From Semisulcospira habei (taxonomy: Eukaryota; Mollusca; Gastropoda; Semisulcospiridae): 64,000 nucleotides of DNA. The notes beneath the pieces were generated by a model. It had not been told where the DNA came from. It saw only the letters and a list, made by a program, of their open reading frames with translations, and did no database searches. The DNA is taken from assembly GCA_036245525.1 (NCBI GenBank), contig BTPG01000003.1, forward strand, positions 210,870,070 through 210,934,069. The letters run 5' to 3'. This document shows positions 25,840-38,065 of this stretch, in pieces (positions within the stretch are counted from its first letter, which is position 1; each line of letters starts with the position of its first letter). Made by a program: the position numbers and the translations under genes.

Positions 25840-26042
25840 AGCCGAGAACCAGTCAAAAAACTCCGCCCTGCACGTGTTTTAAAAAAAACTTTACAGGACC
25901 CAGCGAGGGCCCTGTCAGTCGTGAACGTTCGGCTAACTTGCCCCTAAGTCGGCAAACCGGTTTGCAACTCAGTTGACTGAGTTTTCAACTGCGTTCGTCG
26001 TGCTGGCAAAAATCCCGTGAAAAAGACAGGCCACTTCCTGTA
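25840..26042. repeat. left terminal inverted repeat of the 12.2 kb transposon
   Basis: Pairs with 37866-38065. It includes an 18-bp perfect palindrome AACTCAGTTGACTGAGTT at about 25967-25984 and nearby repeats of TTTGCAACT/TTTCAACTG, plausible transposase binding sites. The corresponding sequence in the right repeat is AACTCAGTTGACGGAGTT. Confidence 0.85.
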
Positions 26043-26189
26043 TGCAACGAGTGGGCACCGCGATCACTGATGTAAATCAGCGATATTTGTACTGATAGCA
26101 ACAGCAGCAGACGACACCACCCAACAGACTGAGCTGGACATTGTTCAAGTTACGTCAGTCTGCCCGCTGAGGGTGACCCAAACTGCATT

Positions 26190-29100
26190 ATGGACCAGGA
26201 CGAGCTATCCGTAAGTTACACAGTACAGCCTGTATCTTTATTTGATATCGGAAGGGCAAGAAAGGAGGGGTTATTTCATCTGGAGTGGCCTACAGCGAAT
26301 ATTTTCCCTACTAAGGGCAGCTATTATAATCAGCGTGACCCAAGGCGACCTAAGATTGATCTCCCTTGTATCCTTTGGCAACTATGTCAACAGGCGATCT
26401 CTTATACAATTTACTGTGTTGGCTGTACAATGCTTCTTCATTTATTCATTGTAGCATACCGATATTACACTTTGTGGCATCAACGAAGATTATAATAATA
26501 ATGATTATAAATCCTAAAGGACTCGGGTTTACCAATTGTTGTTCTTGTTGTGTCCTCCATGTTCTCTTTGTTTTTGGTTTGGTCCATTGGGTTTTTTTTT
26601 CCTATTTGGTTTTTTTTAGGGGGGGGGGGGGGGGTTCAATACATGTCTCCTAAGTACGTTTAGTGCTAAAGGATATCCGGAATGTAACGAACTGTACATG
26701 TGAATTAGTAAAAGTGAGCACTGCATAAATAGTGTAATACTGATTCCTGTCACACATGTGCAGGATGCTGAATTTTATCAGCTTATGACGGAGGATGAGT
26801 CACAAAATGAAGACCGAAAACCGGACTCCCAAGAGGATGAATTGCTGGATGAAATGGACGCACAAACTTTGGCTGAGCTGGAACAGGAACAATATGTAAC
26901 ATATATCACAACAATGTGTGTTTGTGTGTGTGTGTGTGTGTGTGTGTGTGTGTGTGTGTGTGTGTGTGTGTGTGAGAGAGAGAGAGACAGACAGACAGAC
27001 AGACAGACAGACAGACAGACAGAGTGAACTTGTTGCGAATGGGGGTGGAGGGTGGGATGTAGTTTGGAAGTATGATGGAGAGAGTGTGTCACTGCAATGC
27101 ATTCAATGTACATGTGCCTGTTATAGTAGTGTGTATATTATTGGTCCTGTGAATGACCACATTCACTTCATTATGTTGCAGTCTTGCATTCATACAGTAT
27201 TTGCCAAGGTGTTTACCTGGTTATGTCTTATGATTTCAGAGTACAGGAAGCAAATGTGTCGTGTAGGACATGGCTGGAGAAAGCTTTGGCTCAACGGCGC
27301 CCTGTCATTGACTATGATACATGTGTGGAAACTGTGAAACGGCTAAAATGTACTGTGTTTGACTGCCACGGGTGCTGCGAGGAGGAGACAGTGCAGCCTG
27401 CCCCACAGCAGCCTATGGCAGGGATCATGTTCCAGTTTCACTGTACTGTAAGAAATAATATTTCCATCTTTCCTCTTAAGCCACACTACTTCCTCAACAT
27501 GTATATTGTACTTCTGAATGATCATGTAATGAGGGTTGGATTCTTCCATTACTGTGAAATGAATGAAAGTGTCCAAACATGTTTACTGACTGTTCACATG
27601 GAGTGTTTGCACATCAAATTTTGTCTGGCACTAAATTCTGATTGTTTCTAAACAGAATGGCCACATCCAGTACTGGAGCACGACAAAAAAATATGGAGGC
27701 AGAAGTCTAATGGGGCAGCTATGGGTCCTCATCATTCTGTTCAGTGGCCTCACTTACAGTCAGGTAGTGTGAGCATATTGCCCAACAGTTAGTAGTTTTA
27801 TTGGCAGTGTCTAATAATTGTACTTGATAGTCAAAGCTGTACATAATGATATGTTTGCCTACAAAGTCAACCTAGTTTGAATTCCAGTTGAGTAGGTAAT
27901 GTGCATTTTGTGGCCAGTTGGATTTTTTTTAGGGTCAGATGTATCAACACAACTACTGTACCCATGTGCTTCCAATTTAGGCTGAAACTGTAAATGAAAC
28001 TGTGGCAACTTGTTCACTGTTCTAGGTTGCTCGAGCTGCAAGATTTGCACACCTTGCCATTCCCTCAGCCTCCAGATTTTACCAGCTACAGAAAATCTTT
28101 TGTCTGCCACTCAGAGAATACTATGAAAAAGCAATGGAAAATTCCGGGCCATATCACCAGGACGGGTGGTGGCAGTTGATACCCGGTTTGATTCCCCCGG
28201 TAATATTTTATGTGTATCTGTCAGGTTAGCATACTGTACAGGTTATTGTGATTAGCAAAAGGTACTGATTGTTTTGTTCACAGTCCCAGTGCATTGGTGA
28301 AAATATGTGTGTGCTCTCTGAAGTGCTTTACCTCTCAATTAATGTTTTCTCTAAATGTTTGTGTAGGCCACTGTGCCTCAAAATCGACCACTGCGTTCAT
28401 GGACGTAGAAAGTGGACTCATCATCCATTGCGAATTTGGTGATCACCGAGCAACACAGGTGAGACAAACAGTTATTTGAAACAGTAATATTGTTTTTTTA
28501 GTAATAAGAGTAAAACACACCAAGCATAATGTGTGATTATGTGGGGCCAGATTGATAGGAGAGAGGTATGCAGACAGTAAAATATGAAAATGTTTTCCAC
28601 TCTGCATTGTGTACATAGTACCCTTGAATTTTTCCTCTCAATGAATGGCAAGATGGTGATGTGGACACACTGACAATTCTTGTGAATTGTGTTCTCTTTC
28701 TATTTGGGTTCACAGCGCCAGGCAGCCCCGATGGAAAAGCTGAATGTTGCTTTGGGCTTGCATCACGTCACATTCTTTTACCCACAACGTGCCGAAATAG
28801 TGTCTGATGCAAGCTCAACCATCAGGTCACTTCTGGGTGAGTAAATCAAGAGGCTGACAACAATAATAATAATGAGAAGAAAATCATTAATGAATATGGA
28901 GACAGAACATAGATACCATGCCATTTGCAGTTCAGAGTAGTAAAGTGAAGGACAATCAGAGTGAATGAAACTGACTGTTGCAACTTACTGATTATGTGAC
29001 ATGTTACAATGTGCACTGCAAATGGACCTAGTGCACATGATGCACATGAAGTTTTGTGTGTGAATTATATTCCACTGTCATATATATAGTGCAGATAATT

Positions 29101-37028: not shown

Positions 37029-37865
37029 CTGATGGAAAAAATAAAATGAACACAAAGTAACATGATGCTAACAAGGCACGCAAGATGCGAGGTAATACAA
37101 AAGGGTTGTGTACACATATACAGGTGACGTGCCATACATTATCCGATCAGATATCACAATTGTCCCACAAGTAATATGTGCTCTTCTATTTCGCTAAAGT
37201 TGTCGGGGGAAAAAAAGCAGTAAAATGCGCGAGTGGAATAACGCACAGGCTACTACAAAATACAAAGCAAACACACACAATGGTGAGGGAAGGAGAGGAA
37301 AACAGCTGCTAAAACTAAATTGGGTGAACTATGCAATGCCACTTATCTGATAGCCCATTTTAGTATACGAGATCAGCCGATATGAAACAGCCCCGGTGTC
37401 TTCCGTAAGATGCAGCTGCAGTTCCTAGTTCTGTTCAGACTAATTACTTGCAACATAAGAATGTATTATGTACGAATATGGTCGCGTGAATTTGCCCCAT
37501 CGAAAGGAGTGCGTAGATTTGACCGCCATCTTGCATATCCAAGGTAACCATTCACTCCGAGTGGTTTCCCCTGATTTCCCTCAATGCTTTGCTGGCGATG
37601 GCGTCTGCTGAAGTTGCGTGTATGGTAACTGCAGTAAAACTTTACGCCTGCACTATGTGTACAATATCATAGACTGGATTTACGTGTGGTAAAGTTTCGT
37701 TCACAACTACAAAGTGTCAGGAGTCATACTTACATCTTGTACTACCGTACATTCCGCCATCATCCCCAGCGCGTAAAGTCCGTGGCAGCCAGTCAGTTTC
37801 GAAACTGTCGGTCACAGCATCAGTCGTCTGATGTTGTCCGATCTGCTAATCAAGAGGATTTACGT

Positions 37866-38065
37866 GGAACAGGAAGTGGCCTGTCTTTTCCCGGGAGTTT
37901 TGCCTGCTCGGCGAACACAGTTGCAAACTCCGTCAACTGAGTTGCTAACCGATTTGACCCACTTAGAGGCACGGTAGCCTGCGGCTGACAACAGGGCCCA
38001 AGCTGGGTCCTGTAGAGTCTTTTTAAAACACGCGCTGGGCGGATTTTTCTTATTGCACCTCAGCT
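37866..38065. repeat. right terminal inverted repeat of the 12.2 kb transposon
   Basis: Reverse complement of 25840-26042 with substitutions and small indels. The outermost part (TTTTTCTTATTGCACCTCAG, 38043-38063) also happens to look like a good 3' splice acceptor facing the phosphatase exon remnant. Confidence 0.85.

Follow-up and report, generated by a model that had tools for sequence, protein, structure and literature searches.

The window analysed here, a stretch of 64,000 nucleotides from the gastropod Semisulcospira habei (contig BTPG01000003.1), contains a DNA transposon that spans 25840–38065 and carries two converging genes: a spliced gene for a DDE-like transposase on the plus strand and a cysteine-rich gene on the minus strand. 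Both had been proposed in an initial annotation of the sequence, and both are present. The ends of the element form imperfect inverted repeats. Local alignment pairs 25838–26136 with 38067–37786 at a score of 121, whereas 200 shuffled controls reached no more than 26; a pairing by chance is thereby ruled out. The strong part of the pairing, about 200 bp long, consists of the left terminal repeat (25840–26042, plus strand; starting AGCC; family sequence AGCTGAGAA), which has further matches in the same genome, and the right terminal repeat (37866–38065, minus strand; family sequence AGCTGAGGTG), placed by the alignment together with the ends of other family members; these are the two repeats reported initially, now confirmed. 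The termini read AG...CT, matching the 5'-RR...YY-3' pattern of Kolobok transposons. On direct reading the target-site copies are TTAA on the left (25836–25839) and TTGA on the right (38066–38069), so that the original description of the element as TTAA-flanked holds for one side only.

TTAA is still the target rule of the family: among ends matched to within 6 bases of the terminus in stretches L009–L057, 24 of 28 adjoin TTAA and 27 of 28 start with AG. The four others adjoin TCAA, TCAG, TAAA and CCTC; TCAA and TCAG come from opposite sides of a single head-to-head junction (L010), while CCTC adjoins a neighbouring element (L056). At the L010 junction (L010:4590) the elements meet at a TCAA-like joint. 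Two neighbouring elements also lie head to head at L016:4420–4425, where they have one TTAA in common, as would be expected if a new element had entered the TTAA beside an older one.

The left repeat was then used to search the window's own genome (1.98 Gb in 507 contigs). Scoring 40 of the 1576 first-look candidates yielded at least 42 matches, one of which is the window's own end; 36 of them extend over the full 203 bases, and all 41 matches outside the window are 90–97% identical to the repeat. The initial annotation had named a lack of other copies with the same ends as the finding that would speak against a transposon, and in this genome such copies exist. Two long ones, e3 (C3:82217082–82227771) and e2 (C2:68005921–68019395), have TTAA on both sides. 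Short elements of ~0.8–1.8 kb in L011, L012, L014 and L016, each with both family ends and TTAA on either side, are non-autonomous derivatives. When the genome was searched with the peptide of transposase exon 9, 97 matches were obtained (115 scored candidates), of which the window ranks first and seven others tie in score, with 94% identity and no stop. Finally, the copy in L026 is 97.6–99.9% identical to those in L027–L033 over longest aligned pieces of 1975–3233 bases, introns included. This near-identity indicates that the family moved recently, and we conclude that it has spread in the recent past.

The transposase gene of the window requires 12 exons on the plus strand. Exon 1 (MDQDELS; 26190–26210) was found in copies e1, e2, e3, e5R and e5L, and exons 2 (26764–26895), 3 (27247–27447), 4 (27656–27763), 6 (28367–28458) and 11 (30603–30793) were placed by exon joining and comparison of copies. 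The remaining exons carry the recognisable motifs and most of the damage. Exon 5 (28026–28199), whose true end lies at ~28199, is frameshifted in the window and contains VAVDTRFDSPG in copy L055, which we take as the first catalytic D motif. Exon 7 (28716–28836) carries SDASS, taken as the second D; exon 8 (29199–29267) carries DVWH, a DxxH motif, and exon 9 (29536–29784) an H2CH-like pattern, both frameshifted in the window; exon 10 (30185–30300), with LENFFS taken as the catalytic E, is preceded in the window by a damaged, shifted acceptor. Exon 12 (31184–31449) is open to a stop ending at 31449 and is probably the last. All 12 exons occur at the same boundaries in e1, e2, e3 and e5R, a few of them partial, and the older copy e5L has matches for exons 1 and 12 only. 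In e3, four sites have altered splice signals and exon 8 carries an insertion.

As the reference for the transposase we used copy L055, whose right end adjoins TTAA and whose left-most 97 bases lie outside the read stretch. Its 12 exons join with phases 0,0,0,0,1,0,1,2,2,2,1,1, and its exon 2 ends at a GT donor. The initial count of 12 exons therefore stands; the single phase exception noted with it comes partly from the choice of acceptor for exon 3 and partly from damage in the window copy. The joined L055 protein contains VAVDTRFDSPG, SDASS, DVWH, HFWFCC...WHVQGTHQW...CEH and LENFF, which gives a DDE arrangement with a C/DxxH motif between the second D and the E (VDTR, SDASS, DVWH, LENFF), the catalytic D and E residues being assigned by reading of the motifs. 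After the C/DxxH and before the E lies an H2CH zinc-finger pattern (WHVQGTHQWPGGACEH), recognised as a pattern only. In cells the gene would be spliced from 12 exons.

The second gene, on the minus strand, has four exons. Exon 1 (MAECTVVQD; 37734–37760) could be recognised only in e1, e3 and the window. Exon 2 (36903–37028) encodes a cysteine-rich segment (KCCPCQKRSTCSQRCACKQRKTQC) with no Pfam match at E<=1. Exon 3 is missing from the window together with a segment of ~510 bp whose place is at 35390–35400 and which is present in e1, e2, e3 and e5R. Exon 4 (32481–32955), the last, encodes a ballast domain and has, in the window, lost its acceptor and acquired one frameshift. The minus-strand open reading frame (ORF) of the window matches Pfam P2RX7_C (1.1e-10) and has four PDB matches, all to P2X7, the best at 1.8e-5. 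In L055, exon 4 comprises 157 codons with P2RX7_C running to its end (2e-22), and by our own reading seven ballast cysteines are kept; exons 2, 3 and 4 are open in both L055 and L056, all in phase 0. Judged by its sequence, the minus-strand gene is KolX with the ballast domain of P2X7, encoded in a single terminal exon, and the protein may be expected to bind zinc.

The same pair of genes occurs in a distant sister family, which accounts for 67 of the 97 exon 9 peptide matches at 42–46% identity, 55 of them with one E-value (counted by hand). Its sampled copy, L057 (C3:25993300–26003290, around L053), has transposase exons on the plus strand, one of them with a stop, and a ballast gene on the minus strand (8677–9153) that matches P2RX7_C at 2.8e-21 and shares 44% of 159 aligned residues with KolX. 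Its transposase is 47–56% identical to L055 in the four longest pieces (51–125 residues) and 36–61% in shorter ones, and it keeps the motifs (VAVDTRYDSPG, SDASS, DIWH, WHVQG/GIHRW...CHH and IECF), with the H2CH pattern there split by an intron. Several introns are shared as well. The residue numbers given here follow an L055 reading that, from exon 3 onwards, runs one ahead of the corrected read. Three introns recur in L057 with both splice sites matching in residue and phase, namely those after residues 213 (phase 1), 307 (phase 2) and 390 (phase 2); the donor after residue 493 (phase 1) recurs too, the introns after residues 155, 244 and 429 are absent, and that after residue 284 is ambiguous. 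Two further transposase introns appear private to L057. The intron before the ballast exon precedes the same aligned start, at a codon boundary, in both families. Six sister-family copies lie on small contigs, and L053 is 99.1% identical to L054 over 2409 bases; the sister family, too, looks like a recent burst.

To look for selection on the two genes, codon positions 1+2 were compared with position 3 in five pairings, three of which were tested for significance (e5R, e1 and the window, each against L055); the comparisons of e2 and e3 were tabulated only. Between L055 and e5R, 20 of 983 first and second positions of the transposase differ, against 25 of 490 third positions (p=0.0015); for KolX the counts are 12 of 514 and 19 of 256 (p=0.001), and 316 of 5493 noncoding positions differ. 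The comparison of L055 with e1 gave p=0.0002 for the transposase and p=0.002 for KolX, and that of L055 with the window gave p=0.0001 for the transposase. These results suggest that transposase and KolX are both under selection. The codon constraint and the pairing of KolX with the transposase in the sister family make KolX a part of the element and rule out a foreign cargo gene; the second gene had first been described as cargo.

The window element itself is a decayed copy in which both genes are broken: the transposase has frameshifts in exons 5, 8 and 9 and the shifted acceptor before exon 10, and KolX has the lesions given above. Since neither gene can yield an intact protein, the copy could at most be moved in trans. 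It also carries two later insertions. A long interspersed nuclear element (LINE) with a reverse transcriptase ORF (RVT_1, 1.8e-42) and an 8-bp duplication occupies 33003–35069 (plus strand), in the intron before KolX exon 4; the site is empty in e1, e2, e3, e5R, L055 and L056. A second LINE fragment at 35566–36378 (plus strand) is bounded by a perfect 33-bp duplication (35533–35565 and 36379–36411), and its site is empty in e1, e3, e5R, L055 and L056 and deleted in e2. The extent of 12.2 kb proposed initially is correct, but the length includes two LINE pieces inserted later and is not that of a single unit. Elsewhere in the window, 5277–8581 and 17638–20672 (both minus strand) each appear by eye to hold a copy of a LINE family, and the fragment at 35566–36378 corresponds to the 3' end of that family; the former copy matches RVT_1 at 7.5e-22.

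Altogether, we conclude, with a probability of roughly 0.9, that the element is a once autonomous, now decayed DNA transposon of the Kolobok superfamily, of the Kol0 type, with a spliced DDE transposase and KolX. Kolobok had been suggested as a lead by the initial annotation and is the best-fitting superfamily by ends, target, motifs and the presence of KolX. Comparison with described elements draws on excerpts of PMC9587614, PMC6004289 and PMC7016195. According to these, Kol0 Kolobok elements encode a transposase and a KolX protein with the P2X7 ballast fold (PMC9587614); Kolobok transposases carry C/DxxH, and nearly every lineage also has a zinc finger ahead of the final E (PMC9587614); they have an H2CH finger and usually a THAP domain as well (PMC6004289); and 5'-RR/YY-3' ends separate Kolobok from piggyBac (PMC9587614).

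Several observations weigh against this assignment. The 581-residue L055 transposase read, which carries a surplus residue where exons 2 and 3 join, gave no Pfam match at E<=10, a THAP domain included, and no PDB match at E<=1; a search of viral contigs with the same read confirmed no relative of the transposase, nine stretches that fit a pattern not having held up. As no Pfam or PDB relative was found, the superfamily placement is based on the ends, the target, the motifs and the partner gene, with known Kolobok elements compared by description only. Every copy whose whole transposase was read has at least one lesion: e1, e2, e3 and e5R are each damaged in their own way, and in L055 exon 3 contains a single stop and exon 7 is followed by a GC donor. 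In addition, a motif search did not find KolX exon 1 in L055 or L056. Finally, the codon comparisons have a branch in common and so are not independent, and the one between L055 and the window was not significant for KolX (10/398 against 11/199, p=0.053).

Some of these points would fit a superfamily of its own, as yet undescribed and close to Kolobok, MuDR and P, that had come by its TTAA target and KolX partner convergently: known Kolobok elements were compared by description, no THAP domain was found, and the gene is rich in introns. Target, end dinucleotides, DxxH, H2CH and KolX jointly fit Kolobok as described in the excerpts of PMC9587614 and PMC6004289, and we consider such a superfamily improbable. 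Less probable still is an element of the piggyBac kind, with a TTAA target and a KolX-like gene in addition. The AG...CT ends fit the 5'-RR/YY-3' rule of Kolobok (PMC9587614, in the part used here), no piggyBac domain was found in the transposase (Pfam, E<=10), which has DxWH and an H2CH pattern instead, and L055 KolX keeps seven ballast cysteines by our own reading, unlike the piggyBac ones described in the same excerpt. A domesticated single-copy host gene pair with old inverted repeats on either side, to which the many introns and the overall readability of the gene at first reading had lent some colour, is ruled out for the window copy and negligible in general, as the same ends are multicopy, young copies are near-identical through their introns and the window copy is broken in both genes.

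The Kolobok element described here is real and mostly known in kind; what it adds is a fresh view of intron structure and of the P2X7 exon. A literature search on introns in Kolobok transposases listed eight papers, none of whose titles names the subject. The initial annotation was unaware of any described element that pairs these genes, but KolX and transposase are already reported together in Kol0 in the part of PMC9587614 used here. The likeness to Kol0 (Kolobok-1_XT type; Kapitonov and Jurka 2007, as cited in PMC9587614) extends to TTAA, 5'-RR...YY-3' ends, DDE, DxxH, a zinc finger before the last E and KolX. The Xenopus Kolobok transposases in the PMC6004289 table rows used here are single ORFs of ~2.1–2.6 kb, whereas here there are 12 transposase and 4 KolX exons and THAP was not found. 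Xenopus also offers a parallel in XKol and T2-MITE, where autonomous Kolobok elements occur with short TTAA elements having AG ends (PMC6004289); XKol full-length elements measure 6.8–13.9 kb (its Table 5), and their end sequence and host differ from those of the present element. KolobokP, as excerpted from PMC9587614, resembles it in being a Kolobok, in its richness in molluscs and in having a second gene on the other strand; it differs in having long terminal direct repeats and a His-Me nuclease, where the present element has inverted repeats and a P2RX7_C second gene.

On its left side the element appears to adjoin coding sequence. Two exons at ~24903–25040 and 25736–25839, when joined, match Y_phosphatase at 1.2e-18, the second of them continuing without a break into the TTAA; on the right, 38070–38108, followed by GTAAAG, could be the remainder of the same exon. 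The element has therefore probably inserted into an exon of a gene for a protein tyrosine phosphatase, and the interrupted gene is possibly a null allele. Further right, tandem repeats with periods of 44–113 bases (38601–39351, plus strand) read as a lysine-rich repeated peptide in ORFs of 115 and 222 amino acids, but nothing indicates that a gene is present. At 46223–50751 (plus strand) lie three LINE-like ORFs (312, 595 and 604 amino acids); the last matches RVT_1 at 4.9e-38, and the 595-residue ORF weakly resembles an endonuclease, at a value (6.4e-5) that falls short of the cut-off. The sequence is interrupted at 41855–42354 and at 59666–60165 by N, exactly 500 in each run.

By analogy of motifs, the spliced DDE transposase is predicted to be the catalytic protein: it would bind the long inverted repeats and cut the element out, and the excised element would insert into TTAA and duplicate it. 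KolX, a putative zinc-binding ballast protein encoded by a four-exon gene on the other strand, would regularly accompany the transposase as the element's second protein, most probably in an accessory role alongside it at the ends or in the nucleus. The initial annotation had taken the introns as a sign of a long-lived or domesticated lineage. For the window copy, a decayed member of a repetitive family, this does not hold; as a transposon, however, the lineage may well have persisted for long, given the introns that it has in common with the distant sister family.

The KolX ballast exon also bears on P2X7, which arose by fusion with KolX according to the portion of PMC9587614 used here, the sole source for this link recognised in a full-text literature search, which also listed a review (PMC9319628) with a single mention of each term. 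In the vertebrate P2X7 receptor, whose tail it forms, the ballast domain makes up the final exon, exon 13, with 170 residues (PMC7016195, excerpt); P2X7 and the nanor proteins of that paper have the same cysteine-based domain as KolX, whose last exon, with 157 residues, is of closely similar extent. The P2X channel part of P2X7 is not in KolX, which is a transposon gene. It is conceivable, and we offer it as a tentative proposal that is more doubtful than the classification above, that the element belongs to an intron-rich Kol0 lineage with ancestral introns, and that P2X7 exon 13 is the captured last KolX exon of an element that landed in or after a P2X4-like gene, rather than the product of a gene fusion of another kind. 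Under this proposal, the four transposase introns and the pre-ballast intron found at the same residue and phase, in proteins 36–61% identical by piece, would be ancestral, and a last KolX exon that holds the whole ballast domain behind a phase-0 acceptor would be a ready-made exon for capture.

A recently mobile Kolobok that bears KolX, with both genes readable in copies, makes the role of KolX testable by a transposition assay. The one-exon ballast unit and the conserved intron before it would, in turn, provide a concrete and checkable route to exon 13 of P2X7.

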